From contig NZ_CP029256.1 in NCBI RefSeq assembly GCF_003628755.1, positions 2,561,585-2,625,584 on the forward strand: 64,000 bases of DNA. Direction: 5' to 3'. The notes under the pieces are model-generated. The model was not told the origin of the DNA and searched no databases. It saw only the letters and a list, made by a program, of their open reading frames with translations. Position 1 is the stretch's first letter, and every line of letters starts with the position of its first letter. This document shows positions 4,108 to 35,274 of this stretch, one piece after another. Origin of the DNA: Christensenella minuta. GTDB lineage: Bacteria; Bacillota; Clostridia; Christensenellales; Christensenellaceae. The position numbers and the translations under genes were made by a program.

Positions 4108-4111
4108 AATT

Positions 4112-4576
4112 ATGGATCAAAACGATATGGTTCCGTCCGGGAAAATGCCGGACCCTGTAGATCAAAAGAACGAACCGGCCGCGCCGGAGGCCGGGAAAGG
4201 CCCGGTGACGCTCGACGAAATGGAACAGATGCTCGACGAGCTTGCGGAGGAGCTGCCGGAGGCGTTTTTCTACGGGCTGAACGGGGGCGTCGTGCTTCTT
4301 TCGCAGACAGAGCGGCATCCGCGCGGGCAGGGCGGGCTTTATACGCTCGGCTGTTATTTCTCCGGCGGTGAAATGGGCCGTTATATCGCGATTTATTACG
4401 GCTCGTTTTTGCGTGTCTTCCCGGGCGCGTCGCGGGAAAAGATCCGCAGGGAGCTGCGTAAGACCCTGCGGCATGAGTTCCGGCATCATGTGGAATCCCT
4501 GTGCGGGGAAAACGGCCTCGAGGTCGAGGACGAAGTGTTTTTACAGAATTACCTGCGTTCGCGGGGCGGAAAATAA
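4112..4576 (+). CDS. small zincin-like metallopeptidase family protein
   Basis: A 154-residue protein of the zincin-like metallopeptidase group (Pfam Zincin_1/DUF1025 type). The evidence is HEFRHHVE near the C-terminus, an HExxHH zinc motif, in a protein of typical small size with no signal peptide. The N-terminal 40 residues are Pro/Glu-rich and probably disordered. The ATG at 4112 is chosen because it follows the upstream stop by 4 bp; GGAG in the end of the EEP gene is a weak ribosome site, implying coupled translation. Substrates of this family are largely unknown, so function beyond a probable cytosolic zinc peptidase fold is not claimed. Confidence 0.8.
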   Translation: MDQNDMVPSGKMPDPVDQKNEPAAPEAGKGPVTLDEMEQMLDELAEELPEAFFYGLNGGVVLLSQTERHPRGQGGLYTLGCYFSGGEMGRYIAIYYGSFLRVFPGASREKIRRELRKTLRHEFRHHVESLCGENGLEVEDEVFLQNYLRSRGGK

Positions 4577-4607
4577 AGGCGGTTATTGCGGAGGACGGGG
4601 TTTGCCT

Positions 4608-5705
4608 ATGAAAAAATTAGCTGTATTGTTTCTTGCGTCGGTCTTGGTTTTGAGCGCGTGCTCGGGCGGGCCGCTTTCTTCGGGAAGCCCGGGCCCAGTG
4701 CAGTCGGCGGCTGAGGCAACGGCGAGCCCCGCTCCCGCGCCCACAGGCCCGCCGCCGGACATAGGGGAACTGGTGGCAGGATTTTCTTTTGAATATCCTC
4801 CGCTGGCCGCGCTTTATCCGCAGGACGGAGAACGGGGCTATGAAACCGTCGTTAACAATCCGGATATAACGGGCGGGCTCATAACGGCTTACGAGGCATG
4901 GGCTGAAGCGGTGTCCGCACATTGCGCCCGGCAGTTTAAGGCCTATTATGAAGACTGTACGTGGAGCGTGGGCAGCGAAATGCAGGCTCCCGGCTGGCAG
5001 GTGCTTGCGGCAGCGGCGCTTGCCTGTGAAACGCCCAGGGAACTTATTGCCCGGTTCCAAACGCTTGTCACGCCCTCTGTCAGCGTGGCCGCGGATGGGG
5101 AAGGACACACGGATTTTGAATTTGCGTTGCTCCCGAAAACTCCGCAGGAGGCGTTTCCCCTGTCAGATATCAAAGGAGATCCGATCCCTGCGGAGCTTTT
5201 CACGAGCACTTATCTGCTGACCATTTACGACGAGACGGGGGAGCTGCGGGAAGACAGCGGAGCGTTTGCAGGGCTTTCAGAGCGGCTCGCCTTCCCGTTT
5301 GCCGAGCGGTACGGCTTCAGCGACTGTTGGTACGACGACCGGGACGGCGGCGCGCGGCGGCATACGGGAACGGACATCCTGTGCCCCGAGGGCACGCCCG
5401 AGCTTGCTTGTGTAGACGGCGCAATCCTTGCCGTGGGCGGCGGGGAAGGGACCGGGAACTATGTGGTGCTTGAAGGTGCGGACGGTACGCAGTACCATTA
5501 TTATCATATGGTGGAGGTATCGCAGCTCGTGCAGCCCGGGAATACGGTGAAACGCGGGGACCCGGTGGGCCTCGCGGGAAATACGGGCAACAGCACGGCA
5601 AATCACCTGCACATTGCCATCATTGCGCCGGACGGCGTATATGTGAATCCATATCCCTATCTGCTTGACGCGGAGGACGCTCCGCGTCAGGCCACGGCCC
5701 GGTAG
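4608..5705 (+). CDS. M23-family peptidase lipoprotein
   Basis: A 365-residue lipoprotein. The signal peptide ends in the lipobox LSAC, followed by a Ser/Pro/Ala-rich linker, a middle region of unknown fold (about residues 50-225) and a C-terminal LytM/M23 domain. The zinc motifs HTGTD and HLHIAI are present, with YHYYHM between them. M23 enzymes cut peptidoglycan cross-links or, when catalytically poor, act as envelope scaffolds; the intact ligands suggest an active enzyme on the outer face of the membrane. The ATG at 4608 is chosen because it starts the signal peptide. It lies 31 bp after the zincin gene, probably in the same transcript. Confidence 0.9.
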   Translation: MKKLAVLFLASVLVLSACSGGPLSSGSPGPVQSAAEATASPAPAPTGPPPDIGELVAGFSFEYPPLAALYPQDGERGYETVVNNPDITGGLITAYEAWAEAVSAHCARQFKAYYEDCTWSVGSEMQAPGWQVLAAAALACETPRELIARFQTLVTPSVSVAADGEGHTDFEFALLPKTPQEAFPLSDIKGDPIPAELFTSTYLLTIYDETGELREDSGAFAGLSERLAFPFAERYGFSDCWYDDRDGGARRHTGTDILCPEGTPELACVDGAILAVGGGEGTGNYVVLEGADGTQYHYYHMVEVSQLVQPGNTVKRGDPVGLAGNTGNSTANHLHIAIIAPDGVYVNPYPYLLDAEDAPRQATAR

Positions 5706-5730
5706 CTCACTGGAGCATCCATATCTATAA

Positions 5731-5759
5731 TTGACTTTGAGCCTCAAATATCCGATAAT
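5731..5759 (+). promoter_or_regulatory. sigma-A promoter of leuS
   Basis: TTGACT (5731-5736), 17-bp spacer, GATAAT (5754-5759). The transcript would start near 5766, leaving a leader of only about 40 nt, too short for a T-box. Confidence 0.8.
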
Positions 5760-5804
5760 AATAAGGTATATCGAAATTTATTGATTGCCGGAGGCGAAAG
5801 TAAG

Positions 5805-8216
5805 TTGAACTTCACAGAGAATGAAAAAAAATGGCAGGAAAAATGGGCGGAAACGGGTATTTACAAATACGATAAAGACAGTAAGAAACCCAAGCACTAC
5901 GTATTGGAAATGTTTTCCTATCCCTCGGGCGCAAAGCTGCACGTAGGGCATTGGTATAATTACAGCCTTTCGGATACCTATGCGCGCTTTATGCGTATGA
6001 ACGGCTATAATGTGTTCCATCCGATGGGGTTTGACGCGTTCGGCCTTCCTGCGGAGAATTACGCGATCAAGACGGGCATCCATCCGCAGGATTCCACCAT
6101 GCAGAACATTGAGACCATGGAAGAGCAGCTGAAGGCCATCGGCGGTACGTGGGACTGGGACTATGAAGTCAAAACCTGTATGCCCGACTATTATAAATGG
6201 ACGCAGTGGTGCTTCCTTCAGCTCTATAAGCACGGCCTTGCCTACCGCAAGGCGGCGCCGGTCAACTGGTGCCCGTCGTGCAATACCGTACTCGCGAACG
6301 AGCAGGTTGTGGAAGGCTGCTGCGAACGCTGCGGAACGCAGGTCACTAAAAAACACCTGACCCAGTGGTTCTTTAAGATCACGGACTATGCGGAGCAGCT
6401 TTTAGAGGGTCTTGGCCGCATCGACTGGCCGGAAAAGACCAAGCTGATGCAGAAAAACTGGATCGGCAAATCCCAGGGCGGCGAAGTGAAATTCGATATC
6501 GTGGGCGGCGGGGATTTCACCGTGTTCACAACCCGCGCAGATACGTTGTTCGGCTGCACCTATGTGGTGATCTCGCCCGAACATCCGCTGGTGGAACAGA
6601 TCACTACCTCCGTCCAGCTTCCGGCCGTGAAGGAATACCAGGAATACGCGGCGCGGGCAAGCGAGATTGACCGCCTGTCAACCACGCGCGAAAAGACGGG
6701 CGTATTCACGGGCGCATATGCGGTCAATCCCATCAACGGGCGCAAGGTGCCGATCTGGACGGCGGATTACGTGCTTGCCAGCTATGGCACAGGCTGCGTG
6801 ATGGCGGTTCCCGCACATGACGAGCGCGATTATGCCTTTGCGGAAAAATATAATCTGCCCATCGAGCGGGTCATCAGATCCAAGGACGGCTCGGACGATG
6901 CGCTTCCCTTTACCGAGCACGGCATTCTCGTAAACAGCGGGAAATACGACGGCCTCACCACCGAAGAGGGAAAACAGGCGGTTTTGGGCGCCCTCGCAAA
7001 AGAGGACCGCGGCGGCTTTAAGATAAACTACCGCCTGCGCGACTGGCTGGTTTCCCGCCAGCGCTATTGGGGCGCGCCCATCCCGATGGTATACTGCGAA
7101 AAGTGCGGGGAGGTCCCCGTGCCGGAGGATCAGCTTCCCGTACAGCTTCCGTATGACGTGGACTTCACGCCGGACGGGACTTCGCCGCTCGCAAAGAACG
7201 GGGAATTCGTAAACACCACCTGTCCCGTTTGCGGAGGACCGGCGAAGCGCGACGTGGATACGATGGACACCTTTGTGTGCTCCTCGTGGTATTATCTGCG
7301 TTATCCCGACAATAAAGATAAAAAGGAAGCGTGGAACAGGGAGCTTATTGACAGTATGCTGCCCGTGGATAAATATATCGGCGGCGCGGAGCATGCGTGC
7401 ATGCACCTGCTGTACGCGCGTTTTTTCACCAAGGCCTTTCATGATATGGGCTATGTAGGCTTTGACGAACCGTTCTCGTCCCTCGTGCACCAGGGCGTGA
7501 TCCTCGGGCCTGACGGCGAGAAGATGAGCAAAAGCCGCGGCAACGTGATCTCACCGGACGAGCTTATCAAAAAGTACGGCTCAGATACCCTGCGTATGTA
7601 TCTCGCGTTCGGCTTTAATTATGTGGAGGGCGGTCCGTGGAACGACGACGGGATCAAGGCGGTGAGCCGTTTCCTCGAACGTGTTGAGCGCCTTGTGGAT
7701 GCGGTGGCTCCCATGCAGGGCGGCAGCGGCCAGCTGGATTTCGACGTAAATTACCAGCTCAATTATGCGGTCAAAAACGTAGCGCGGGATATCCCGCAGT
7801 TCTCGTTCAACACTGCGGTCGCGCGTATTATGGAACTTGTGAACGCAATGTATAAATATATGGACGGCCAGCCGGACGCGGCCTTTTTAAAGGAAGCTGC
7901 GAAAAAGCTGTGCCTGCTCCTCGCACCGTTTGCTCCGCACTTTGCAGAGGAAATGTGGTCGCGCCTCGGCGGGGAATATTCGATCTTCAATCAGGATTTT
8001 CCAGTGTGCGACGAAAGCGCGCTTAAGCGCCCGGTCGTAAATATGGCGGTGCAGGTAAACGGCAAGGTGCGTGCGAAATTCGACATTTCCGCGGACGCGG
8101 GCAGGGAAGAGATCGAGCGGTATGTGCGCGGCGAGTTTGCAGAGCTGTGGGAAGGCAAGGAGATCGTGAAGTTTATTGTGGTCCCCGGCCGCATCGTCAA
8201 TATCGTGGTGAAATAA
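5805..8216 (+). CDS. leuS: leucyl-tRNA synthetase
   Basis: An 803-residue class I synthetase charging tRNA-Leu. The HIGH signature is HVGH in [13 protein letters not shown] and the KMSKS loop is intact ([10 protein letters not shown]). A zinc finger (CPSC...CERC), the CP1 editing domain ([12 protein letters not shown] and the AVPAHDERD region), a second CxxC pair (CEKC...CPVC) and the C-terminal anticodon-binding and VxxKF regions follow in the usual order. The best start is TTG at 5805, 10 nt after GGAGG; the TTG at 5781 has no such site. It has its own promoter and, unlike ileS in this window, no T-box leader. Confidence 0.97.
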
Positions 8217-8395
8217 TTAAGGAAAAATCCCACATGTGAATAAAGTGCTTGGGAATATTGAAAAGTTTGTTGAAAGTTCTGCAAACGGCGTTCGTGTTCC
8301 GGCGGGAAAGCCACCGTGTGGAGAGGCGCGCCGCGCCGGATATTTGTCCTCGCGGAAAAAAGGGATATTGCCGCGAGAAAAGAATAAAAAATGCC

Positions 8396-8424
8396 TTGTC
8401 CTCACGAATTTTTTGTGGTAAAAT
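8396..8424 (+). promoter_or_regulatory. promoter of tRNA-Ser
   Basis: TTGTCC (8396-8401), 17-bp spacer, TGG-extended TAAAAT (8419-8424), about 50 bp before the mature tRNA. The 179 bp between leuS and this promoter hold no gene or clear terminator. Confidence 0.7.
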
Positions 8425-8475
8425 CATTAATGCTGTAACGAATGGAATTCATATTCCGGAAAACCAAATTTAAGT

Positions 8476-8567
8476 GGAGCAGTGGCTGAGATGGCTTAAG
8501 GCGCACGATTGGAAATCGTGTGAACGTTAATAGCGTTCCGGAGGTTCGAATCCTCTCTGCTCCGCCA
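8476..8567 (+). tRNA. tRNA-Ser(GGA)
   Basis: A 92-nt class II tRNA with encoded CCA. The acceptor arms GGAGCAG (8476-8482) and CTGCTCC (8557-8563) pair perfectly, with discriminator G at 8564. The anticodon stem 8504-8508/8516-8520 closes a 7-nt loop with anticodon GGA (8511-8513). A long variable arm and a T-arm with GGTTCGAATCC follow. Its last 18 nt (8550-8567) recur inside the flanking repeats, which suggests the tRNA gene was an integration target. Confidence 0.95.
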
Positions 8568-8688
8568 AAAAGAAGCTTGCGCCGAAGGTGCAGGCTCTTT
8601 TTTGATAAAATGGGAAGGATTCGAACCGAGGGAGGTTCAACAGAGCGGGAGCCATCGGCGAAGCGCGATGTATCCTCTCTGCTCCGCC
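8566..8688 (+). repeat. 123-bp perfect direct repeat, left copy (R1)
   Basis: Identical by eye over all 123 bp to 11750-11872. It starts at the end of the tRNA CCA and holds a terminator hairpin, an inverted T-arm box GGATTCGAACC (8617-8627), and a second copy of the tRNA 3' end: the 18-nt string at 8672-8689 equals 8550-8567. In the repeat the T-arm is split, GGAGGTTC being separated from ATCCTCTCTGCTCCGCC by about 33 nt, so it is a derived tRNA fragment and not a tRNA. Confidence 0.9.
8574..8603 (+). terminator. tRNA-Ser terminator inside repeat R1
   Basis: A 10-bp stem (8574-8583 with 8587-8596, two G-T pairs), GAA loop and a run of six Ts. The same hairpin occurs in R2 at 11758-11787. 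Confidence 0.85.
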
Positions 8689-8690
8689 AC

Positions 8691-8840
8691 ATCGCAGTAA
8701 ACTACGCTGCGCTTCAAAGCCTCGCTTTTAGCGAGGCTTTTGCGTATGCTCCGTTGCTGCTCCTTTTCCCCACGCGACCCGCTTCGCTGAGCTCGCGTGG
8801 AGCCCCGTTTTTAGCTGCATCTATTTCGCATCAATGACAC
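8691..8840 (+). repeat. 150-bp diverged repeat, left copy (S1)
   Basis: Follows R1 directly and aligns over 150 bp, about four-fifths identical by eye, with 11601-11750 (S2). It contains a terminator-like hairpin (8718-8726 with 8730-8738, then TTTT). A shorter, more diverged copy of its first 60 bp follows R2 at 11873-11935. Confidence 0.75.
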
Positions 8841-8844
8841 AAAA

Positions 8845-8880
8845 ACAGAACCCGGTTTTTAGCCGAGTTCTGTTTTTCTT
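8845..8880 (+). terminator. intrinsic terminator after S1
   Basis: Stem 8845-8851 with 8867-8873, extended by CGG/CCG past one mismatch, followed by a T-rich tail. It isolates the methyltransferase promoter from upstream transcription. S2 lacks this hairpin and runs directly into R2. Confidence 0.8.
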
Positions 8881-8941
8881 ATGCGGATTGTAGAGCTTTT
8901 TTTCATTCTTCAATATTTCTAATATTAGCGGGATGAATCAA

Positions 8942-8970
8942 CTGACAGGATTTGCTTTACATGATATAAT
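8942..8970 (+). promoter_or_regulatory. promoter of the methyltransferase operon
   Basis: CTGACA (8942-8947), 17-bp spacer, TGA-extended TATAAT (8965-8970). Close to ideal; transcription would begin about 25 bp before the start codon. Confidence 0.85.
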
Positions 8971-9003
8971 CAAATAGTAAATTGATATGACTAGGTGAAG
9001 AAT

Positions 9004-10134
9004 GTGGCAAATAGAAAATATAAACTCATTGATTTATTTTGTGGTGCCGGAGGCCTTTCGTTAGGTTTTAGTAATATTTTTGGACATCATTTTGAATCGG
9101 TATGGGCAAATGATATGAATCAATATGCGGCAGATACCTATAATGAAAATTATGGAAATAATTGTGTTGTCGGCGACATAGTAGACTTGTTGGCAGATCC
9201 ACATATAGAAATTCCAAATGCCGATATTGTTATTGGCGGGCCACCATGTCAAGGATTTAGTCTGTTAAATAAAAAAAGAGACGGAGACAAAAGAAGAAGC
9301 CTTTGGCGACCATTTATGGAAGTAGTGGAACGTTCGGGAGCGGAAGTGTTCGTAATGGAAAATGTCCCACAATTACTCAACTCAGAAGAACTTGAAGAAA
9401 TTGAGCAGTATGCTACACGTTTAGGATTTTTTCCATTAGCGAAAGCTAAATTGTGTGCGGCTGATTATGGTGTGCCACAAATCAGATATAGGGCATTTAT
9501 AATTGGTTGTCGGTCTACAGACCCAAATAGTAATTTCCCTCCATTAAAAACGCACTATAATCCTTCCGATTTGAACTCTACAAAAGGGCTTAATTTGCAG
9601 GAAGGATATGTCAAAAATCCACAACCGTGGACAACGGTGAGGGATGCTATTGGAGATTTGCCGGAGCCACGGGGAACCGAGATTAGGAAGGACATAGATC
9701 CACCTCTTAATTTGCATTTTGGACGTAATCCTACAAAAATTAGTATGAAACGTTATAAGTCAATCCCTGATGAAGGGATGAATCGATTCGATTTGCAACG
9801 GATTGCCCCGGATATAACCCCAAAATGTTGGAAAAACAAAAAATCCGGCGGGACGGATTTATTTGGACGACTATGGTGGGATCGACCATCTGTGACTATA
9901 CGCACCGAATTTTTCAAACCGGAAAAAGGACGTTATTTACATCCGGTGGAACATCGTCCTATTACGCATCGTGAAGCTGCTAGAATACAATCTTTTCCGG
10001 ATTCCTTTCGCTTTGTAGGAAGCAAAATAGAAATTGCCAAACAAATTGGTAATGCTGTCCCGCCGTTATTGGGTGCAAAAGTTGCCGAGTGTGTAGAAAA
10101 ACTTTTGAGGACTAAATCGAATAAGAATGACTGA
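9004..10134 (+). CDS. C5-cytosine DNA methyltransferase
   Basis: A 376-residue DNA (cytosine-5) methyltransferase with all main motifs in order: I (DLFCGAGGLSLGF), IV (IGGPPCQGFS, catalytic Cys82), VI (MENVP), VIII (QIRYRAFIIG), a target-recognition region at about 200-300, IX (RPSVTIRTEF) and X (QIGNAVPP). It transfers a methyl group from SAM to cytosine in a specific site that cannot be predicted here. GTG at 9004 is preferred because AGGTG lies 6 nt upstream; GTG at 8995 is the alternative. It overlaps the Vsr-HNH gene by 8 nt. Its A+T-rich composition suggests acquisition with that gene. Confidence 0.95.
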   Translation: MANRKYKLIDLFCGAGGLSLGFSNIFGHHFESVWANDMNQYAADTYNENYGNNCVVGDIVDLLADPHIEIPNADIVIGGPPCQGFSLLNKKRDGDKRRSLWRPFMEVVERSGAEVFVMENVPQLLNSEELEEIEQYATRLGFFPLAKAKLCAADYGVPQIRYRAFIIGCRSTDPNSNFPPLKTHYNPSDLNSTKGLNLQEGYVKNPQPWTTVRDAIGDLPEPRGTEIRKDIDPPLNLHFGRNPTKISMKRYKSIPDEGMNRFDLQRIAPDITPKCWKNKKSGGTDLFGRLWWDRPSVTIRTEFFKPEKGRYLHPVEHRPITHREAARIQSFPDSFRFVGSKIEIAKQIGNAVPPLLGAKVAECVEKLLRTKSNKND

Positions 10135-11515
10135 CGTATTTGATCCCATAAAAAGAAGCCAAATAATGGCGCATGTGAGAACAAAAAATACGGCGCCGGA
10201 AGTCAAATTAAGAAGTATCTTACACAGGAACGGCTTCAGATTCCGTTTGAACCGCAAAGATCTTCCCGGTAAACCCGATATTGTATTGCCAAAATATAAA
10301 GCGGTTATATTCGTTCATGGATGCTTCTGGCATGGACACGCTTGTCCACGTGGACAAAGGCCACAAACAAATATGGAGTTTTGGAACAAAAAAATCAATA
10401 AAAATATAGAACGTGACAAATCGGATATAATCAGGCTTAGAGAGCTTGGATGGCGAGCATTAGTAATTTGGGAATGTGAACTTAAAAAACAAAATCAAAA
10501 TGCTTTAGTGCTACGCTTAAAAAATTTTTTAGCTGGAAAAAATAATGAGAAAGAGAGTGATGATATGGCCCGTCGTTCCCGACCAAACGATATTCCCGAA
10601 AAACTCCGTCAATCACTAATAGAGCTACTGACAAATTTTTCAGAGGAATTAAAAAAATCCAATTTGCGATCTAAGGTCGTCGCATTGGTACCTGCATTTC
10701 ATACCTTGCGAGATTTAGGCAGCTCACTCATTCCTAAGAGTCAAGCTATCTCCGCTCGTGATCGTATTATTTCTTATCTCAAGCAATATCCGAGAACGGT
10801 AATTGATGGGGATGAGTTAATGGTCGTTTCGGGGATCAATGAATGGGCTAGAAGGGTCAGAGAATTGCGAGTGCAATTTGGGTGGTGGATATATTCCGGG
10901 GTGACATTTAATCAGATGGCTCAAAACTCAGATGATGTAGCTTCATTTAAAGAGATGGGGGTCGATCCTTCTAAAGTCAGGCCGGATCAATATGTACTTA
11001 TGCGTACTGAACAAGATAGAGATGCAGCACATCGCTGGAATGTGCTTAATGAAATACGCAAAAAGAAAATTGCAGTTAAAGATAAAATTATTGAATACTT
11101 GAGGAAAAATGTTGGTGTTCAGGTTACGGGTGAAGAATTGAATTATTTGGCTGGTGATACAAAAGAATGGGCTCGACGTATTAGAGAATTACGTACGGAA
11201 GAGGGTTGGCCAATAGTTACTAAAAATACCGGGAGATCGGATTTGCCGGTCGGGGTTTACCTTTTGGAGGAAGATCGTCAGGCATATGAGCATGATAGAA
11301 AAATTCCAGATCCTGTACGAGTGGCAGTATTGGAACGTGATCATTTCAAATGCGTGGAATGTGGTTGGGATAGAACTATGATCTCAAGGGAAGACCCACG
11401 GAAAATGCTTGAACTTCATCATAAGCAGTATCATAAAAATGGTGGGGATAATACTAAAGAAAATCTTATTACACTGTGCAATGTATGTCATGACGACGTG
11501 CATCGACATAGTTGA
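10127..11515 (+). CDS. Vsr mismatch endonuclease fused to a C-terminal HNH nuclease
   Basis: A 462-residue two-part protein. Residues 1-140 are a full Vsr very-short-patch-repair endonuclease: RSQIMAHVRTKNTAPE, catalytic Asp51 in GKPDIVLP, and His64 and His69 in FVHGCFWHGHACPR, at the same numbers as in E. coli Vsr. Residues 209-255 and 317-363 are two copies of a winged-helix-like unit (EWARRVRELR / EWARRIRELR). Residues 407-460 are an HNH nuclease (CVEC, LELHHKQYH, N446, CNVCHDDVH). Vsr nicks T:G mismatches left by deamination of 5-methylcytosine; the HNH part is probably the restriction enzyme paired with the methyltransferase. An ATG at 10565 (Met147), exactly at the junction, could also give a separate HNH protein. 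Confidence 0.88.
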   Translation: MTDVFDPIKRSQIMAHVRTKNTAPEVKLRSILHRNGFRFRLNRKDLPGKPDIVLPKYKAVIFVHGCFWHGHACPRGQRPQTNMEFWNKKINKNIERDKSDIIRLRELGWRALVIWECELKKQNQNALVLRLKNFLAGKNNEKESDDMARRSRPNDIPEKLRQSLIELLTNFSEELKKSNLRSKVVALVPAFHTLRDLGSSLIPKSQAISARDRIISYLKQYPRTVIDGDELMVVSGINEWARRVRELRVQFGWWIYSGVTFNQMAQNSDDVASFKEMGVDPSKVRPDQYVLMRTEQDRDAAHRWNVLNEIRKKKIAVKDKIIEYLRKNVGVQVTGEELNYLAGDTKEWARRIRELRTEEGWPIVTKNTGRSDLPVGVYLLEEDRQAYEHDRKIPDPVRVAVLERDHFKCVECGWDRTMISREDPRKMLELHHKQYHKNGGDNTKENLITLCNVCHDDVHRHS

Positions 11516-26975: not shown

Positions 26976-27003
26976 TTGACAAAAAAATACGATATGTTAT
27001 ACT
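26976..27003 (+). promoter_or_regulatory. strong promoter of the leader RNA and ABC operon
   Basis: Consensus TTGACA (26976-26981), 16-bp spacer, TGT-extended TATACT (26998-27003). One of the best promoters in the window. Confidence 0.88.
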
Positions 27004-27008
27004 GTAGT

Positions 27009-27100
27009 TAATCGAATAGAGTCCGGATCGTTCATGGTTGATGATTCGGATCACCGAACATGGTTATGAGTGCCTTTGTTTTTACAAGGGCACTTTTTTT
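27009..27100 (+). ncRNA. terminated leader RNA of the sugar ABC operon (possible ANTAR antitermination target)
   Basis: About 90 nt between a strong promoter and an intrinsic terminator. The first hairpin pairs 27022-27029 with 27043-27050 (one G-T pair), then an internal loop, then a 2-bp stem closing the hexaloop AUGGUU (27034-27039), which has the A1 and G4 that define ANTAR-binding loops. A second AUGGUU at 27060-27065 is flanked by CAC (27052-27054) and GUG (27070-27072), whose pairing would use the first bases of the terminator, but this second stem is weak. It matches no metabolite riboswitch I know. An sRNA or leader role is certain only to the extent of the promoter and terminator. 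Confidence 0.6.
27070..27100 (+). terminator. attenuator/terminator upstream of the ABC operon
   Basis: A 10-bp stem (27070-27079 with 27084-27093, one G-T pair), 4-nt loop and seven Ts. It would stop transcription 170 bp before the binding-protein gene unless read through. No second promoter is obvious in the A+T-rich 27101-27272. Confidence 0.88.
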
Positions 27101-27272
27101 ATTGCAACAATCTAAGCTTTACAAAATTCGTTTTATAACAACAACTGCCGGAAGAGACGCCCATAGGCGGAATGTTAATATGCCGGGAATACAGGATATC
27201 CGTTTTTTCGTAAATTAAAAAAGAACAGTTTCGGGGAGGCCTTCCCCAAAAAAATAAAAGGAGAGAAATATT

Positions 27273-28595
27273 ATGGACAGAAGGAAAAGATTTTTGACAA
27301 TGTTGGTATGCTTTGTGCTCGCCGCCTTTATGCTTACCGCATGCGCCGGGGGCGGTGCGCCCGCCGCAACGGAAAGTGTCGCCGCCGGGCAGGGCGCGGA
27401 GACAGAAACGCCCGCCGCGACGGATACGGCGGAAGCCGGGACCGAAAGCTCGCCGGCGATCCTCACTTCGGCAGACGTAGGCGACGTTTCCGGAATTGAA
27501 GGCTGGGACGGTCCCGTAGAAAGCCAGGTTATGACGGCCGGAGAAGACGGCGACCAGTTTGGCACGGCGGAGTCGACGGTCGTCGTCGGGAAAGGGCCGA
27601 AAGGCGAGGTCTCAACCCCCTGGACGGAAATAGCGCTGACGGATGAGGAAAAGGAGCAAATCAGGAGCGGAAACTATAAAGCGGCGATCTGCTTCCACTA
27701 TACGACGGACGACTGGTACGTAATGCAGCGCAAGGGAATCGAGGAAACGTTTGCAGACCTCGGCATAGAGGTTGTGGCCGTAACGGACGCCGGTTTCTCC
27801 GCGGAACAGCAGGTATCGGATATTGAAAACGTCCTCGAGCTCAATCCGGATATTATCATCAGTATCCCCGTCGATGAAACGTCTACGGCCGTCGCATACC
27901 AGAAGGCCGCCGACGCGGGGGTGAAGCTGGTGTTTATGGACAACTGCCCGAGCAATATGACGGCCGGGAAGGATTATGTCTCCATCGTGGCCGCCGACCG
28001 GTATGGCTGCGGGATGATCTGCGCCGACCTGATGGCCAGGGAGCTTAATTACGAGGGAACCGTCGGGGTGATCTATTACGACGCGGATTTCTTTGTAACG
28101 ACACGCGATTGCGCCGGGTTTGTAGACCGGATGAAGCTGAAATATCCCAATATTGAAATCGTTACGGAGATGGGCTTTGCGGATGCGACGCTCTCCGGCG
28201 AGGTAGCGGACGCAATGCTCGCGCAATATCCGGATATCGACGGTATCTTCGGAAGCTGGGATGTCCCCGCGGAATATATCGCTTCGTCCGCGTCGGCCGT
28301 CGGCAGGGACGACCTGGTCGTAAACTGCGTGGGCCTGGGCACCACCACCGCTTCCATGACGGCCGGGGACGGCATCATTAACACGATCTCCACACAGCGG
28401 CCCTACGACCAGGGCTGCACGGAAGCGCTTCTCGCATGCTATGGCCTGCTTGGGAAGGATGCGCCCGAATACGTAACGGTTCCCGCCCTCGGCGTTACAA
28501 AAGAGGGCAGCGAAAATTCGGCGTCCCTGAAGGATGCGTATCAGCTTTTCTATCAGATCGATACCCTTCCGGATTGGCTGCAGCAACTGATGTAA
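27273..28595 (+). CDS. sugar ABC transporter substrate-binding lipoprotein
   Basis: A 440-residue lipoprotein. The signal peptide ends in lipobox LTAC (Cys24), followed by an Ala/Thr/Glu-rich linker of about 100 residues, longer than usual, and a periplasmic-binding-protein type 1 fold (Peripla_BP_4; AICFHYTTDDWYVMQRKGI, NPDIIISIPVD, VKLVFMDNCP, DIDGIFGSWDVPAEYI). It should catch a sugar or polyol outside the cell and hand it to the permease at 30143-31099. The exact ligand is unknown. It begins 172 bp after the leader terminator and is preceded by AAGGAGAG. Confidence 0.93.
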   Translation: MDRRKRFLTMLVCFVLAAFMLTACAGGGAPAATESVAAGQGAETETPAATDTAEAGTESSPAILTSADVGDVSGIEGWDGPVESQVMTAGEDGDQFGTAESTVVVGKGPKGEVSTPWTEIALTDEEKEQIRSGNYKAAICFHYTTDDWYVMQRKGIEETFADLGIEVVAVTDAGFSAEQQVSDIENVLELNPDIIISIPVDETSTAVAYQKAADAGVKLVFMDNCPSNMTAGKDYVSIVAADRYGCGMICADLMARELNYEGTVGVIYYDADFFVTTRDCAGFVDRMKLKYPNIEIVTEMGFADATLSGEVADAMLAQYPDIDGIFGSWDVPAEYIASSASAVGRDDLVVNCVGLGTTTASMTAGDGIINTISTQRPYDQGCTEALLACYGLLGKDAPEYVTVPALGVTKEGSENSASLKDAYQLFYQIDTLPDWLQQLM

Positions 28596-28608
28596 TTTAA
28601 CTGCATGG

Positions 28609-28638
28609 CTTTAGCGCCCGCAAAGGCGGGCGCTAAAG
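28609..28638 (+). promoter_or_regulatory. intercistronic hairpin after the binding-protein gene
   Basis: Perfect 13-bp stem (28609-28621 with 28626-28638), AAAG loop, no T-run. Such hairpins commonly protect the 3' end of binding-protein mRNA so that more of it is made than of the ATPase and permease. Confidence 0.7.
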
Positions 28639-28662
28639 TCAAAAATGGAGGTGAAGACTGGA

Positions 28663-30180
28663 ATGGGAACGCCCTTATTAAAAGCAAACCATATTACAAA
28701 AGCATTCAATGGAGTTACCGTGCTCGATAATGTGGATTTCTCGGTAGACGAAGGCGAGGTACACGCGCTTGTCGGCGGGAACGGAGCAGGAAAAAGCACG
28801 TTGATGAAGATTATTACAGGCGTATACACGCATGATTCGGGAACGCTGGAGCTCGATGGAAAGCCCCTTTGGTTTAAGGATTACAGCGAAGCCACAAAAA
28901 ATGGCGTCAGGATGATTTTTCAGGAATTAAGCCTGGTGCCCACCATAACCGTCGCACAGAATATTTTCCTGAACCATGAAATCAGCAACAGGGGAAGGCT
29001 GCTGGACTTAAAGAAGATGAACAGGAAAGCCGCGGAAATCCTCGACAGCCTTGGCGTTGAAATCAGCCCTGCAACAATCGTCGGAACCTTAAGCGTTGCG
29101 GAACAGCAGCTCATAGAAATCGCAAAGGCGCTTTCGGAAGAAACAAAAATCCTGGTGATGGATGAACCCACCTCCTCGCTCTCGGAAACAGAGGTAGAAA
29201 CGCTGTTCCGCATCGTAAGGAAGCTGAAGGAGCAGGGCGTGGCAATCGTGTATATATCGCACAGGATGAATGAAATACTGAAAATTGCGGATAAGGTAAC
29301 AATCCTTCGGGATGGACAGCGCATCATCACGGAACAGGCAGAAGTGCTTACCGTTTCCGAGATCATTAAATATATGCTGGATGAACACGCAAAAGACCTG
29401 AAACCGAATGTGAATTATGAAAATATCAGGTATGACCGCTGCGTGCTCGAGATAAAAGGACTTACCGTAAATTCATGGGTGCGGAATATTGATTTCAAGG
29501 TTTATGAAGGCGAGGTCGTAGGATTTGCGGGCCTTATGAACAGCGGCAGGACGGAAATACTGGAAGGAATATTCGGCCTGCGGCATACCGAGTCCGGTGA
29601 AATCCTGGTCGATGGCAGGCAGGTCCCCCTTAACAGGGTGGATGCTTCAATCGGCGCGGGGATGGCGCTCGTTCCGGAAAACAGGCGGGAGGAAGGGCTT
29701 GTGCTCGGACATTCGCTTGAAACCAACATGATCCTGCCGTCTCTCGACCGGCTCAGGAAAAAAGCATTGCTCGACCGTACGAAAATCAGGTCGCTTGTTG
29801 AAGAAAACGTTCAAAAATACAATATAAAAACCGACAGCGTGCACAAGATGATCTCCCAGCTGTCCGGCGGAAACCAGCAAAAGGTTGTATTCGCAAAATG
29901 GCTTTCCACCCAGCCTAAACTGGTGATGTTCGACGAACCGACCATAGGGGTTGATATTGGCGCGAAAACCGAATTTATCGATTTTATCAGGGGATACGTA
30001 GCAGGGGGAAACGCGGCAATATTTGTTTCATCGGAAATATCGGAGCTGGTTGCGGCATGCGACAGGATTTTTATCCTGAACCGGGGCAAAATTTGCGCGG
30101 AGCTTTCGGGCAAGGAGATCGAGAACGAGGAGGTAATTCAAAATGAAATCCAGCAGTACAAGTCTCAAAAAGTCGTTTAA
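28663..30180 (+). CDS. sugar ABC transporter ATP-binding protein (RbsA/MglA type)
   Basis: A 505-residue tandem ATPase. The first half has Walker A GGNGAGKST, Q-loop FQELSL, a signature region LSVAEQQL, Walker B ILVMDEP and H-loop ISHR. In the second half Walker A is degenerate (FAGLMNSGRTE) and the signature LSGGNQQKV with VMFDEPT is intact, the normal asymmetry of ribose-type importers. It powers the permease encoded downstream, with which it overlaps by 38 nt. ATG at 28663 fits GGAGGTG better than ATG at 28645. Its first half is the template that the kinase at 33421-35274 copies in degenerate form. Confidence 0.95.
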   Translation: MGTPLLKANHITKAFNGVTVLDNVDFSVDEGEVHALVGGNGAGKSTLMKIITGVYTHDSGTLELDGKPLWFKDYSEATKNGVRMIFQELSLVPTITVAQNIFLNHEISNRGRLLDLKKMNRKAAEILDSLGVEISPATIVGTLSVAEQQLIEIAKALSEETKILVMDEPTSSLSETEVETLFRIVRKLKEQGVAIVYISHRMNEILKIADKVTILRDGQRIITEQAEVLTVSEIIKYMLDEHAKDLKPNVNYENIRYDRCVLEIKGLTVNSWVRNIDFKVYEGEVVGFAGLMNSGRTEILEGIFGLRHTESGEILVDGRQVPLNRVDASIGAGMALVPENRREEGLVLGHSLETNMILPSLDRLRKKALLDRTKIRSLVEENVQKYNIKTDSVHKMISQLSGGNQQKVVFAKWLSTQPKLVMFDEPTIGVDIGAKTEFIDFIRGYVAGGNAAIFVSSEISELVAACDRIFILNRGKICAELSGKEIENEEVIQNEIQQYKSQKVV

Positions 30181-31099
30181 TTGGAATAAATATATTGTCT
30201 ATATCATTTTTGCCGTAATGTTCATTATTTTCAGCGCGATCCTTGGGACCACCTTCCTTTCGGGAAGCAACGTCCTCAATATCATACGGCAGACGGCGAC
30301 AATCAGCATTATGGCGGTGGGCGGCGTGTTCGTGATCGGCGCGGGCATGATCGACCTTTCCGTCAGCTCCATCGTGCCGCTTTCCTCGCTGATTACGGCG
30401 CTGATCCTTACAAATACGGGAAATATCCCCCTGAGCATCGTCGGCGGGCTTGCGGTCGGCGTGGGAGTCGGCTGGGCCAACGGCTTCCTGATTACGTTTG
30501 CCAAGCTACCCGCGTTTCTCGCGACAATGTGCATGATGGGCGTTATCAAGGGCGTAGCAATGTGGGTTACGAATACGCAGGCCGTACCGACCAATAACCC
30601 GGCGTTTAACTACATCTTTGGCGGCGGGGACGTAGGCCCGGTCCCGGTGCTCATTTTCTGGACGGCGGCGTTTGTGATCGTAGGCTATATTGTCCTGAAC
30701 CGCACCTCGTTCGGGGTCAGGACGCTTGCAATCGGCGGGAATGAAACAGCCGCGAAATTTACCGGAATCAAGGTAGACCGCTATAAAATACTGATTATGA
30801 TGATCAGCGGCGCGTGCGCCGCGGTTGCCGGCATATTATACACGGGCAGGATGCAGGCGGCCCGCTATACCTTTGGCGACGGGGACGAAATGTCGGTCAT
30901 TGCGGCCGTAATCCTCGGAGGGGCAAGCCTATCGGGCGGGACCGGCTCCATGGTGGGGGCGCTTGTGGGGGCGATCCTTATGGGGATGCTCAATAACGCG
31001 CTGCTGCTTTGCGGGTTTGATTCAAGCGTGCAGATGATCCTCAAAGGGATCATCATTATCCTTGCGATTGCGGTCACAAATAAGCTCCAGAAGAGATAA
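30143..31099 (+). CDS. sugar ABC transporter permease (RbsC type)
   Basis: A 318-residue BPD_transp_2 permease with 8-10 transmembrane helices. Family marks include GGVFVIGAGMIDLSVSSI in the third hydrophobic segment, TLAIGGNETAAKFTGIKVDRYKI (the cytoplasmic loop contacting the ATPase) and VIAAVILGGASLSGGTGSM. It forms the membrane channel of the ribose-type importer. The ATG lies inside the end of the ATPase gene with AGGAGG 9 nt upstream. Only one permease gene is present, so it should work as a homodimer. Confidence 0.94.
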   Translation: MKSSSTSLKKSFNWNKYIVYIIFAVMFIIFSAILGTTFLSGSNVLNIIRQTATISIMAVGGVFVIGAGMIDLSVSSIVPLSSLITALILTNTGNIPLSIVGGLAVGVGVGWANGFLITFAKLPAFLATMCMMGVIKGVAMWVTNTQAVPTNNPAFNYIFGGGDVGPVPVLIFWTAAFVIVGYIVLNRTSFGVRTLAIGGNETAAKFTGIKVDRYKILIMMISGACAAVAGILYTGRMQAARYTFGDGDEMSVIAAVILGGASLSGGTGSMVGALVGAILMGMLNNALLLCGFDSSVQMILKGIIIILAIAVTNKLQKR

Positions 31100-31175: not shown

Positions 31176-31598
31176 ATGAAAGAGAAAAAACGGATGTGGA
31201 ACTACAGGGAATTTCCGGAGGACCCGGAGGTAACGGCGCTCATGCCCGGTTTTGAAATCCAGTATATGATTACGGGCGATACGGTGGAAGAAAACGAGCA
31301 TCACTGCGTTTTCGGGCATTGCGTATTCCCGCCGCATTCCATGCACGGCCGCCACGGCCACACGCGCTCCGCGGAAATCATTTACGTCATCCGCGGACAA
31401 GTGACCAGCGGCTATGTGGACGAAAACGGCAACGATGTAGAGGAAATCTGTACGGAAGGCTCGTCTACCTATACGCCCCCAAATGTGACCCACTGGGTTA
31501 ATAACCCGTTTGAAGAGGAAGCGGAATTTGTATTTGTCTATACTTGCGCGCACAGTATTCCCGACAGCGGGTATTATGACGTAAAGACCGAAAAATAG
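31176..31598 (+). CDS. cupin-domain protein
   Basis: A 140-residue single cupin. The first metal motif is HGRHGHTRSAEIIYVIRG (His, His, Glu ligands) and the second is YTPPNVTHWVNN (His). Small cupins of this kind act as sugar isomerases or epimerases, lyases or ligand sensors. AAGGAGG precedes the ATG. It lies between the permease and a dehydrogenase in the same operon, so it probably works on the imported sugar or a product, for example as an isomerase. The reaction cannot be fixed from sequence. Confidence 0.85.
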   Translation: MKEKKRMWNYREFPEDPEVTALMPGFEIQYMITGDTVEENEHHCVFGHCVFPPHSMHGRHGHTRSAEIIYVIRGQVTSGYVDENGNDVEEICTEGSSTYTPPNVTHWVNNPFEEEAEFVFVYTCAHSIPDSGYYDVKTEK

Positions 31599-31611: not shown

Positions 31612-32643
31612 ATGAAAGCGGTTAAAATCGTAGGACAGGAAAAAATAGAGGTTGTCGAGACTCCGGTTCCGGAAGTCGGGCCGAACGATGCGCTCGTACG
31701 CCTGAAAGCGACTGCGCTTTGCCGGAGCGACCTTTACAGGTATCACGGTACCACATGCTTTGACGACGACAGCGCAAACACGAATTTCACCCCCGGGCAT
31801 GAACCGTGCGGGATCGTTGAAAAGGTCGGGGACAAGGTCACAAACGTAAAACCGGGCGACCGGGTCGGCTTGTTCATGTTTGTCGGGTGCGGGGAATGCG
31901 AATATTGCCTCCGCGGGGATGAGATGCTGTGCAAACAGTTTGGCTGCATCGGCTTCCAGCGCGACGGCGCGCACGCGGACTACATCGTGCTGCCCGGCGC
32001 AAATTGCCTGAAAATACCGGACGAAATGTCGTTTGTCGCCGCGTCGCTGCTGACGGATGTGGGCGGCGGCCTTTATACGGCGTGCCGGAACCTGGACGTC
32101 AAAGGCGGGAAATACGTCGTCATCGTGGGCGCGGGCCCCATGGGCTGCGGCGGTGTGATGATGGCCAAAGCGTTTGGCGGCAAGGTCATCATTGTGGACG
32201 TGGATTCGGGCCGGCTTGATTTTGCGCGCGGAATCGGCGCGGACTATGCCATAAATCCAAAAGAGGAAGACGTCGAAAAGCGGGTGCTGGAAATCACCCA
32301 CGGACGCGGCGCGGATATCGCCATTGAATGCACGGGAAACGAGGTCGGCGCAAATACCGCCCTTAATGTTGTACGCCCGCTTGGCCGGGTGGGAATCATC
32401 GGCGAAAATTCAAGCTGCACGTTTGATCCGAGCGCGCAGGTAATCCATAAACGGCTGACGATCCTGGGATGCTGGGTGTTCAATAAGAACGATTGGGGAG
32501 AAATTGTGGATTTTGTCCTGGAAAACAATGTTCCAATCGAAAAGCTTGCCACGCACAAATATGGAATCGAAGACGCGGAGGAAGCCTACCGGGTGTTTGA
32601 TTCCCACGGCGCGCAGAAGGTTGTATTTGTCTGGGACGAATAG
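31612..32643 (+). CDS. zinc-dependent MDR dehydrogenase (sorbitol/threonine dehydrogenase type)
   Basis: A 343-residue zinc dehydrogenase. Catalytic zinc ligands are Cys37 and the His63-Glu64 pair (GHEPCG); the structural zinc lobe has Cys93, Cys96, Cys99 and Cys107. The NAD-binding segment is VIVGAGPMGCGG with VDVDSGR, where Asp favours NAD over NADP. It probably oxidises a polyol or sugar brought in by the ABC importer, with whose genes it is cotranscribed, 13 bp after the cupin. Unlike the MDR protein at 13128-14381 it keeps the structural zinc site, so the two belong to different branches. Confidence 0.92.
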   Translation: MKAVKIVGQEKIEVVETPVPEVGPNDALVRLKATALCRSDLYRYHGTTCFDDDSANTNFTPGHEPCGIVEKVGDKVTNVKPGDRVGLFMFVGCGECEYCLRGDEMLCKQFGCIGFQRDGAHADYIVLPGANCLKIPDEMSFVAASLLTDVGGGLYTACRNLDVKGGKYVVIVGAGPMGCGGVMMAKAFGGKVIIVDVDSGRLDFARGIGADYAINPKEEDVEKRVLEITHGRGADIAIECTGNEVGANTALNVVRPLGRVGIIGENSSCTFDPSAQVIHKRLTILGCWVFNKNDWGEIVDFVLENNVPIEKLATHKYGIEDAEEAYRVFDSHGAQKVVFVWDE

Positions 32644-32665: not shown

Positions 32666-32704
32666 GGTAAAAGCGCCTTTTTTGAAAAGGCGCTTTTACC
32701 ATTG
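32666..32704 (+). terminator. terminator of the ABC-cupin-dehydrogenase operon
   Basis: A near-perfect 16-bp stem (32666-32681 with 32685-32700) ending in TTTTACC. Very stable; the T tract lies within the 3' arm. Confidence 0.8.
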
Positions 32705-32828: not shown

Positions 32829-33419
32829 ATGGATAAAGAGAGAGCTTTAAGAATTTATTTGGCAGAAGATGAAAGCATTATTTTGAATTGGATCAAGTCC
32901 GAATTGCTGGATATGGGATATGATGTAATCGGCTGCGCCACCGACGGAAAAACGGCGGTGGCGGAGGTGCTGCGCCTTGAACCCGATATGGTCATCATGG
33001 ATATCAATATGCCCGAAATGGATGGAATTTCCGCCATTGAAAAAATTGTGGAAGCCCGGCTTGTCCCGGTCATTGTGATTACCGGCTATTCGGACCCGGA
33101 ACTGATCGACCGTGCCAATGAAGTCGGCGTTTTCGGCTATCTGATTAAGCCGATCGATATCCACGAGCTATATTCCACCATTAAAATTACGCAGCGCAGG
33201 TTCGAGGAATTCAAAAACGTCCTTTGCAACCTAAAGGATGTGAAAGGGGCGCTCGAGGACAGGAAATATGTTGAAAAGGCAAAGGGAATCCTGATGGACC
33301 GGTTTGGGCTGACGGAAGAACAGGCAATGAAAACGATGCAGAAAAAGAGCAGGAATACCAATAAAAAGCTTGCGCGGGTGGCAAAGGACATCATTGTCTC
33401 GGAGCAGATTTTAAAATAG
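32829..33419 (+). CDS. ANTAR-domain response regulator
   Basis: A 196-residue response regulator. Residues 6-120 are a receiver with acidic pocket AEDE, phosphoacceptor Asp58 (VIMDINMPEMDG) and Lys107 (LIKPID). Residues 130-190 are an ANTAR RNA-binding domain (YVEKAKGILMDRFGLTEEQAM, ending KLARVAKDII). ANTAR proteins such as EutV, AmiR and NasT bind twin hairpins in nascent leaders and prevent terminator formation. Its kinase follows after a single base. The nearest terminated leader is that of the ABC operon at 27009-27100. Confidence 0.95.
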   Translation: MDKERALRIYLAEDESIILNWIKSELLDMGYDVIGCATDGKTAVAEVLRLEPDMVIMDINMPEMDGISAIEKIVEARLVPVIVITGYSDPELIDRANEVGVFGYLIKPIDIHELYSTIKITQRRFEEFKNVLCNLKDVKGALEDRKYVEKAKGILMDRFGLTEEQAMKTMQKKSRNTNKKLARVAKDIIVSEQILK

Positions 33420-33420
33420 T

Positions 33421-35274
33421 ATGGAAAAATACAATTTCAGGATCAGGAACCTGTCGGCCGTCCGGTTCCAAAAACAAATTATAGACCACATTGATTTTGA
33501 CCTGCGGGAAGGCGAAGTCCATACCGTAATCGGCACGACGGCAACGGATGTGTCGGATTTTGTGGATATCCTTGAAGGCGGGAACAGCAACATCAGCGGA
33601 AATATTATTATCGGGGAAAAAGAGTATGACGCGGGAGATATTGGAAAGTGGACAAAGGAAATCGACCATATCCGGCATGAAAATACGCTCTACGATAACC
33701 TTTCCATCGTCCATAATTTATATTTAATCAGCCGTCCTTTTTTCCTGCTCAATAAAAAGAAATACGTAAAGCTGTGCCAGAAGCTCCTGGACCATTTTGA
33801 TATCCATATCGACGCGGAAACCAAGGTCGATATGCTTACGCACGAACAAAAAAATATTATCGAGCTGCTGCGGCTTTACCTTTGTTCCAAAAGCACGATT
33901 GTCCTGCACGAAACCTTGGATTATATGGATTATGCCTACTACCTGAAATTCCAGCAAATCATTTCCAAAATGCAGGGAGAGGGAAAGAGCTTTTTATATG
34001 TCACGTCCAAATTCGAGGATATATTCAAGCTTTCCGACCGGATATCCTTCCTTTCGAAAGGAAGGATATCCGGCACCTATCTTGCGGAGGAAGTGAAAAA
34101 AGACCCGACAAAAACCATGTGCCTGATGTCCGGATGGGAAAATTTCATGGTGGAGGAAAACCAGCACGAGGAAATCCATGAAATGATCGATGCAATTTTC
34201 AAAGGAACGGAGATTCTCACCTCGAGCTATGAATTGCGGGACGTACTCGTATTTATCGCGGATAACCTTGCAAAGCATATACAGGCGAAGCACTGCGTCA
34301 TTTACATTATAGACGAGATGGCGAATAATATTATCGATACGATCAACAACGACGATATCGCCGGAAAGAAATACCGCCTGAAATCGGATTTTGTCGAGCG
34401 GCTGGCAAAATGCGATACAAACAAGTTCTTTTTTGCCAATTGTACGCATGAGGAAAGAAAAAATTACTTTGAAGAGGAAAACGATACGAAGTCGCTGATG
34501 GGCGTGCCCATTATCCATAAGGCAAAAGTTGTCGGGCTGATACAGGTCTCCTACGATAAGTATTATATGTATACGGAAAAAGACCTGATGTATATTGCGA
34601 CCATGAAAAACGAAATTGTGCTGGCAATCGAAAACTCAAGGCTGATGGGAAGGTCCGCGCTGCTCCAGGAAAGCCACCACCGCATCAAAAATAATCTCCA
34701 GATTATTATCAGCCTGCTTTACATGCAGAAGAACAACCTCCGCAAAAGCAAGGAGGCGGAATGGAGCGACGCCATCGATACAACGATTTACCGCATCAAG
34801 AGCATTGCCGCGGTCCACGATATGTTGTCCAATGAAAAAATGAAGAGCAGCATCGTCAACCTGCGGAAAATCATTACAGAGATTGTCAAATTATATAAAA
34901 CGCCGAGAATCAGCCTTGTACTGGAACTGGACGACGCCTTCATGCCTTATAACAAAGCGGCTTCCGCCGCGCTTGTGATTAACGAGCTGATTAACAATTG
35001 TGTCAAACATGCGTTTGGTTCCAGCGGGGAAGGAATCGTCAGGGTAGTGTGCCGGGACGGGGATGAGGAAATCCGGATGTCGGTTATTGACAACGGAAAA
35101 GGCGCCGACGAACAGAAGCTGCACCGAAAAGGAGGGCTTGGGATATCGATTGTGGAATCGATCGTCTCCGGGGATTTCAAAGGAAAAATCGAATACCGTG
35201 TCGACCACGGCACCACCGTAGATATTGTTTTCCCCAAGCATATTATTTATGACGGGGGCGGCCACGGCAAATAA
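33421..35274 (+). CDS. histidine kinase with a pseudo-ABC-ATPase sensor domain (pseudo-RbsA-GAF-HisKA_2-HATPase)
   Basis: A 617-residue soluble kinase. Residues 5-240 align from end to end with the first half of the sugar ABC ATPase at 28663-30180, but every catalytic motif is lost: Walker A is GTTATDVSD (38-46), the Walker B Asp is His163 (IVLHET), the signature is THEQKN and the H-loop His is Ser196. A GAF domain follows (about 260-405), then a HisKA_2 phosphoacceptor region (HHRIKNNLQI) and a HATPase_c domain (NELINNCVKHAF, DNGKG, GGLGISIVES). It should phosphorylate the ANTAR regulator encoded directly upstream. The dead ATPase domain may sense a nucleotide, a sugar or the transporter itself; this is inference. 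Confidence 0.92.
   Translation: MEKYNFRIRNLSAVRFQKQIIDHIDFDLREGEVHTVIGTTATDVSDFVDILEGGNSNISGNIIIGEKEYDAGDIGKWTKEIDHIRHENTLYDNLSIVHNLYLISRPFFLLNKKKYVKLCQKLLDHFDIHIDAETKVDMLTHEQKNIIELLRLYLCSKSTIVLHETLDYMDYAYYLKFQQIISKMQGEGKSFLYVTSKFEDIFKLSDRISFLSKGRISGTYLAEEVKKDPTKTMCLMSGWENFMVEENQHEEIHEMIDAIFKGTEILTSSYELRDVLVFIADNLAKHIQAKHCVIYIIDEMANNIIDTINNDDIAGKKYRLKSDFVERLAKCDTNKFFFANCTHEERKNYFEEENDTKSLMGVPIIHKAKVVGLIQVSYDKYYMYTEKDLMYIATMKNEIVLAIENSRLMGRSALLQESHHRIKNNLQIIISLLYMQKNNLRKSKEAEWSDAIDTTIYRIKSIAAVHDMLSNEKMKSSIVNLRKIITEIVKLYKTPRISLVLELDDAFMPYNKAASAALVINELINNCVKHAFGSSGEGIVRVVCRDGDEEIRMSVIDNGKGADEQKLHRKGGLGISIVESIVSGDFKGKIEYRVDHGTTVDIVFPKHIIYDGGGHGK

Follow-up and report, generated by a model that had tools for sequence, protein, structure and literature searches.

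A histidine kinase with an N-terminal Rbs-type ABC ATPase-like domain, encoded beside a sugar importer operon in Christensenella minuta

HisKA_2 kinases with ANTAR partners, leaders under ANTAR control and the ATPases of Rbs-type sugar importers are all known pieces of bacterial regulation and transport. EutW, of the ethanolamine utilisation pair EutW/EutV, is a HisKA_2-type kinase. In MalK-MalT and MalK-Aes control, it is an importer ATPase that gives the signal to a regulator. GAF domains bind small ligands. Leaders controlled by ANTAR proteins contain paired hairpins, each with an A at loop position 1 and a G at position 4, and overlap an intrinsic terminator (PMC3369931). C. minuta itself carries a large expansion of RbsA, RbsB and RbsC genes, with 42 RbsA by one annotation (PMC7064737). 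Here we describe a C. minuta histidine kinase in which an Rbs-type ATPase-like domain is fused to GAF, HisKA_2 and HATPase domains. It lies in a 64,000-nt stretch of contig NZ_CP029256.1 (the window; Table 1). We found no description of this fusion: a search of open-licence papers returned none on the ABC-GAF-HisKA_2-HATPase architecture, and the initial annotation of the DNA likewise knew of no family with such a layout.

Table 1. Features of the importer operon and of the regulator-kinase pair (positions in the window)
Feature	Position	Strand	Remark
Promoter TTGACA-16-TATACT, extended -10	26976-27003	+	Importer operon leader start
Predicted ANTAR-type dual-hairpin element, AUGG loops	27024-27079	+	Second hairpin weak here
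Intrinsic terminator	27068-27102	+	Overlaps 3′ part of the element; precedes binding-protein gene
Sugar-type periplasmic binding protein	27273-28595	+	Peripla_BP_4
RbsA-type double ATPase of importer	28645-30180	+	First-domain motifs intact
RbsC-type permease	30143-31099	+	
Cupin protein	31176-31598	+	
Zinc-type sugar/threonine dehydrogenase-like protein	31612-32643	+	
Strong hairpin, boundary of importer operon and regulator-kinase pair	32666-32700	+	Probable importer operon end
Response regulator with ANTAR RNA-binding output domain	32829-33419	+	Directly 5′ of kinase
Histidine kinase	33421-35274	+	617 aa: ABC ATPase-like - GAF - HisKA_2 - HATPase
Inactivated Rbs-type ABC ATPase domain	33430-34140	+	Kinase residues 4-240
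GAF domain	34234-34632	+	Kinase residues 272-404, Pfam GAF_2
HisKA_2	34669-34890	+	Kinase residues 417-490, E = 4e-16, intact His box ESHHRIKNN
HATPase	34957-35238	+	Kinase residues 513-606, HATPase_c at 516-606, E = 6e-12, N and G boxes

The C-terminal part of the protein has the features of a HisKA_2 kinase: HHRIKNN is invariant, and NELxxNCxxHAF, DNGxG and GLGxSIV appear in the family consensus. A search of the window genome at E ≤ 1e-8 found nothing else related to this kinase part. Upstream, Pfam ABC_tran covers residues 22-164 above its cut-off (E = 1.3e-7), and GAF_2 scores slightly below its cut-off in the window kinase (E = 1.5e-5; best in the family, E = 2.4e-18).

The N-terminal domain is related to the ATPases of Rbs-type sugar importers. 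Its best NCBIfam models, over residues 11-254, are all of this type (YtfR, 1.5e-24; AraG, 1.6e-21; AlsA, 4.7e-18). With a single ABC domain and scores far under the equivalog cut-offs (at most 88 bits, against curated values of 586-850), the protein is not itself an RbsA-type importer ATPase. BLASTP aligns the kinase with the first half of the adjoining RbsA at 24% identity and 50% positives over 200 residues (E = 8e-20), and more weakly with the second half (E = 4e-9). The initial annotation had matched residues 5-240 to that first half and proposed profile searches and structure prediction as checks, and each of these upholds the match. Seven family members went into an AlphaFold2 model of the kinase (mean pLDDT 75, with residues 1-220 mostly at 80-92). 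Over residues 2-243 the model resembles solved ABC ATPases (Foldseek E = 1e-13; structural alignment Z = 23.2 over 237 residues at 3.3 Å), and this region is accordingly predicted to form a complete ABC nucleotide-binding domain. Profile, pairwise and fold comparisons exclude chance or artefact as the source of the likeness.

Most hallmarks of an active ABC ATPase are missing from the window copy. Walker A reads GTTATDVSD, compared with GGNGAGKST in the RbsA next door; Walker B reads LHE instead of MDE, with the Asp replaced by His and the catalytic Glu kept; and the H-loop reads VTSKF instead of ISHRM, with the His replaced by Ser. The Q-loop Gln is lost as well, leaving the Walker B Glu as the only catalytic residue among these motifs. 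The signature region (LTHEQKN, compared with LSVAEQQ in RbsA) tells less than the other losses because the RbsA-type first domain itself lacks LSGGQ. Of the replacements claimed in the initial annotation, those in Walker A, at the Walker B Asp and at the H-loop His stand, and the loss of the signature that it also listed is the weakest of its points.

Related kinases occur elsewhere in the phylum. We count 16 intact loci, the window among them and 15 in other genomes, which rejects the idea that the kinase is unique to the window genome. The count draws on phylum-scan matches and their close neighbours, and treats the two Christensenella species as a single locus. The second of these species, Christensenella intestinihominis, has a near-identical locus (L031), and the kinase is absent from four further Christensenella genomes. 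Homologues in the phylum scans are full-length at 30-36% identity, and the same four domains, GAF included, were found in all seven members scanned. On plasmids, no relative with the ABC part was found. We put prevalence at roughly 2%, a lower bound from two overlapping samples of about 400 genomes of the phylum in which the best three candidates per genome were scored. Some copies are imperfect. L065 (kinase at 9565-11418), which we included among the 16, has one in-frame TAG in the ABC domain that may be a sequencing error, a pseudogene mutation or a read-through codon; the rest of the gene is intact and its leader element is among the best. Outside the 16, the kinase of L112 is cut off by a contig end, and L107 (G959:C1:1300001-1318000, 8183-9487) is a broken third kinase copy in one genome, with two stops and no regulator. 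L107 lies near arabinose/xylulose-type genes and an Rbs-type importer, and we read it as a recent loss or duplication.

Phylogenetic analysis indicates that the fused kinases form a single group. In a kinase-domain tree with 22 other HisKA_2 kinases of the same phylum, the 16 fused proteins make up one clade (support 100/97; 99% of bootstrap trees), and the fusion therefore probably arose once. In the ABC-domain tree, the fused domains adjoin the first domains of RbsA and fall outside both the first- and the second-domain clades. What this placement supports is kinship to the RbsA first domain; it does not point to any particular RbsA as ancestor. The window copy has by far the longest branch in this tree (2.77, compared with a median of 0.63).

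Catalytic motifs have eroded to different degrees across the 17 fused ABC domains. A complete Walker A (GxxGxGK[ST]) is kept in seven; seven others keep the P-loop Lys with the Ser/Thr changed to Lys; and three, from the window, L037 and L116, keep neither. The Walker B Asp survives in 4/17 and is lost in 13/17 (the position is His in ten), and the H-loop His is lost in all except one. The catalytic Walker B Glu is kept in every domain, and the motifs of the RbsA first domains at the same loci are intact. The loss of the H-loop His in 16 of the 17 domains also rejects the notion that only the window copy is dead. The family as a whole looks non-hydrolysing, with nucleotide binding slowly being lost and the window copy, the most eroded, as the end point. 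The term 'dead', used for the sensor in the initial annotation, thus fits the window copy and not most of its relatives, which keep the P-loop Lys and share only the loss of hydrolysis residues; judged by its motifs, the domain is better called non-hydrolysing and, in the window, also stripped of its nucleotide site. Other parts of the domain have taken on or retained patterns of their own. The place of the H-loop now holds YxTKQWEEALKIADRI, and the segment after the Q-loop, LSVAENL, is conserved while the catalytic motifs decay. Aligned to MalK, this segment falls at what we take to be the permease docking place; the mapping leans on MalK because the PDB entries searched include no RbsA-type structure at E ≤ 1e-40.

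The fused kinases keep constant genetic company. The regulator directly 5′ of the window kinase contains Response_reg (8.8e-25) and ANTAR (1.8e-19) domains, both above their Pfam cut-offs, in agreement with the HisKA_2-ANTAR pairing anticipated in the initial annotation. An ANTAR regulator lies 0-35 bp from the kinase in 16/16 intact loci, and an RbsA gene on the same strand lies 1.0-3.4 kb away in 14 of them. Of the other two, L037, whose contig spans 3.9 kb, has RbsC in the same gene run at a distance of 49 bp, and at L117 (L111 in a longer cut) a pair of RbsC genes lies further along the run. The L117 contig is without RbsA; there (3823-10258), genes for a glycyl radical enzyme, the activase of this enzyme and the two RbsC permeases come after the kinase pair and its leader. 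Assuming about 30 RbsA genes per 3 Mb, the chance of RbsA proximity at 14/14 loci is about 7e-13. Homologues scattered away from any ABC importer would have spoken against the reading in the initial annotation; in our survey of genome neighbourhoods, every intact homologue lies beside Rbs-type importer genes. Adjacent genes differ in sugar type (e.g., galactokinase- and mutarotase-like genes at L108-L110), and the importers evidently serve different sugars, while the importer class never changes. The usual order is kinase, regulator, binding protein, RbsA, RbsC and sugar enzymes, with 260-420 bp (914 bp at L116) separating the regulator and binding-protein genes. The window departs from it, with the importer genes first, the regulator-kinase pair downstream and a hairpin between them. 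A further strong hairpin at 28596-28662 (CTTTAGCGCCCGC...GCGGGCGCTAAAG), between the binding-protein and RbsA genes, lacks a T tail and is likely an mRNA-stabilising element that favours expression of the binding protein.

The leader of the importer operon contains a putative ANTAR target. It opens with a sigma-70-like promoter, followed by a hairpin whose loop is AUGG and, in most cases, by another hairpin (GGUCAWGGA.GCC) whose 3′ strand is shared with the intrinsic terminator; the gene comes next. In the relatives it occupies the gap between regulator and binding-protein genes; in the window it lies 5′ of the binding-protein gene. The A-U-G-G of the loop agrees with the A..G requirement of known ANTAR targets (PMC3369931). 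A dual-hairpin ANTAR-type element before a terminator fits 14 of the 15 readable importer leaders, and the leaders of L067 and L069 fit it poorly. The window leader has hairpin 1, the AUGG loop and the overlapping terminator (27068-27095 or, by the longer reading, 27068-27102); hairpin 2, clear in most relatives, is weak. Four of nine consensus pairs change on both sides with pairing kept, and hairpin 1 shows compensatory changes. At L116, the gap between the regulator (7667-8251) and the binding protein (5781-6752) holds two near-identical tandem AUGG hairpins and a third before the terminator; the tandem pair is possibly a double ANTAR site.

Detection of the element depended on how the loop was defined. 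Many loops are 7 nt by simple pairing, and a strict search for A1-G4 hexaloops on perfect stems missed most hairpins. Allowing 5-8 nt recovered them; we relied on a covariance model because, used by itself, so loose a rule also finds hairpins in 10-30% of shuffled leaders. A leave-out model, built without either Christensenella leader, matched the window leader at 27024-27079 (27.2 bits, E = 7e-5). In 243 kb of sequence, the two Christensenella leaders were its only good matches besides a near-copy of the training loci, and 28 other RbsA loci from the window genome gave nothing under E = 0.2. Across 26 whole genomes, 13/13 leader-model matches under E = 0.002 fell in kinase-linked leaders, most of which had trained the model. 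That search scored 150 of 882 candidates, and the window leader, presumably dropped by the first-look filter, was not among the matches; its significance therefore rests on the 243-kb leave-out test. Two weak matches away from the kinase (E 0.005-0.007; G792:C1:666257-666310 and G572:C22:3586-3657) are possible further ANTAR targets. A comparison with Rfam did not assign the leader convincingly to any family: the best match, at E = 0.75, fell far short of the gathering score.

Comparison across loci shows the architecture, a probable single origin, the gene partnership and the predicted RNA element. From these we propose that a single Rbs-type (CUT2) sugar importer operon has a two-component antitermination switch of its own, with the ABC domain as input; taken whole, the proposal is in our judgement evenly balanced between right and wrong. 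The pathway from kinase through ANTAR regulator to antitermination of the importer operon is its firmest part and very probable. By the precedent of EutVW, the active kinase would phosphorylate the regulator, the phosphorylated regulator would dimerise and bind the leader hairpins, and RNA polymerase would then pass the terminator so that the importer is made. Points that count against the proposal are the different gene order in the window, its poor hairpin 2 and the ill-fitting leaders of L067 and L069.

The least certain step is the input. Here the ABC domain would dock on the importer, through cytoplasmic loops of the permease or through RbsA, and couple the importer's presence, occupancy or turnover to the kinase; the GAF domain would provide a second, small-molecule input. 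The initial annotation had likewise supposed that the domain may dock on the permease or ATPase, in which case the kinase would report transport activity and not ligand level alone. We infer docking because the nearest kin of the ABC domain is the ATPase type of the adjoining importer, because sugar genes vary between loci and the importer class does not, because the window copy has fully lost its nucleotide site while its gene partnership stays, and because divergence of the ABC domain tracks that of its importer partners. With the kinase-domain signal removed, ABC-domain divergence follows the cognate binding protein (partial r = 0.40, p = 0.003) and permease (partial r = 0.29, p = 0.024), and GAF divergence follows neither; these are exploratory values from about 14 loci and six tests, one of which survives correction. 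Because the window copy lacks a nucleotide site, protein contact would be the simplest function common to the family. The conservation of LSVAENL, which by the MalK alignment would lie at the permease, also speaks for docking. The P-loop Lys kept in most relatives counts against docking and speaks for nucleotide binding there. Overall, we hold docking as a tentative proposal, rated slightly below an even chance. A more specific version, in which the fused domain takes the ATPase seat on RbsC or pairs with RbsA, and transport state passes through the His-Asp relay to the leader antiterminator, is possible but rather doubtful. As a thought and not as evidence, a kinase dimer would carry two ABC-like domains, matching the number of seats on a permease dimer.

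Other sources of the signal can be envisaged. The GAF domain might be the true sensor, of the imported sugar or a metabolite, with the ABC domain retained as a dimerisation or scaffold module that makes no importer contact. Conservation of the GAF domain in 7/7 members scanned, the ready dimerisation of ABC domains and the position of the window ABC domain as the fastest-evolving branch of its tree all fit such a role; yet the ABC domain is full length in every intact member, its divergence tracks the cognate importer better than that of the GAF domain (in the exploratory test above), and the fusion always adjoins the importer type to which the domain is kin. We consider a GAF-only sensor unlikely, though it is the alternative to which we give most weight. 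That the ABC domain senses energy charge, with ATP or ADP bound without hydrolysis setting kinase activity, seems less likely again. An energy sensor needs no place beside a single importer, and the window, L037 and L116 proteins have lost the P-loop residues in an unchanged gene context, even though the kept P-loops of the other domains, together with losses of the H-loop His and Walker B Asp, form a pattern of binding without hydrolysis.

Conceivably, too, this species is losing the kinase, and its ABC domain is a relic in decay. The long branch, the loss of every motif except the Glu, the absence of the kinase from the four other Christensenella genomes and the broken copy at L107 would all be in keeping with decay. 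However, two species have an unbroken reading frame, and few differences between them alter the protein (3 base changes in 1851, the species being too close for a selection test); the His and ATP boxes, regulator, leader element and importer are all intact, which makes decay very improbable.

An ABC-domain input to an ANTAR switch, the reading we prefer, would bear on the old question of how bacteria measure the uptake of a nutrient as opposed to its presence, to which there are few molecular answers. A kinase that has a copy of an importer ATPase as its input, and is always encoded beside such an importer, makes this question directly testable and may let the cell read the importer's own state. 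ANTAR regulators gain a new and defined class of likely targets in Rbs-type sugar operons, and the system may help to explain how, in a gut bacterium, one of about 40 RbsA homologues (PMC7064737) is controlled. The family also offers a ready series of ATPase domains, from nearly intact to fully stripped, for studying the passage from enzyme to sensor.

Among described systems, we file this one under HisKA_2-ANTAR antitermination, with a new kind of sensor. Like EutW/EutV, it has a kinase beside a response regulator with ANTAR output; the leader of its putative target operon likewise has a predicted dual-hairpin RNA, with A..G loops, ahead of an intrinsic terminator. Unlike EutW/EutV, its sensor is an ABC ATPase domain plus GAF, its target is an Rbs-type importer operon, the P1 stem is longer (up to 11 bp) and the loops are often 7 nt by simple pairing. 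The fused domain shares fold and sequence with the first ATPase domain of the CUT2 double ATPases RbsA, AraG, MglA and YtfR, but is single, kinase-fused and without the hydrolysis residues. BceRS-BceAB is likewise a two-component system tied to one ABC transporter, with the transporter as proposed sensor. There, however, BceS is a small membrane kinase of another type, BceAB is exporter-like and the output is a DNA-binding regulator; here the corresponding places are filled by an ABC-GAF-HisKA_2-HATPase protein, a CUT2 importer neighbour and an ANTAR regulator, and the ATPase-like part belongs to the kinase protein. MalK-MalT and MalK-Aes control resembles the proposed switch in using an importer ATPase to give the signal to a regulator. 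In those cases a working ATPase binds the regulator, whereas the regulatory protein described here contains its own, separate copy of the ATPase domain.
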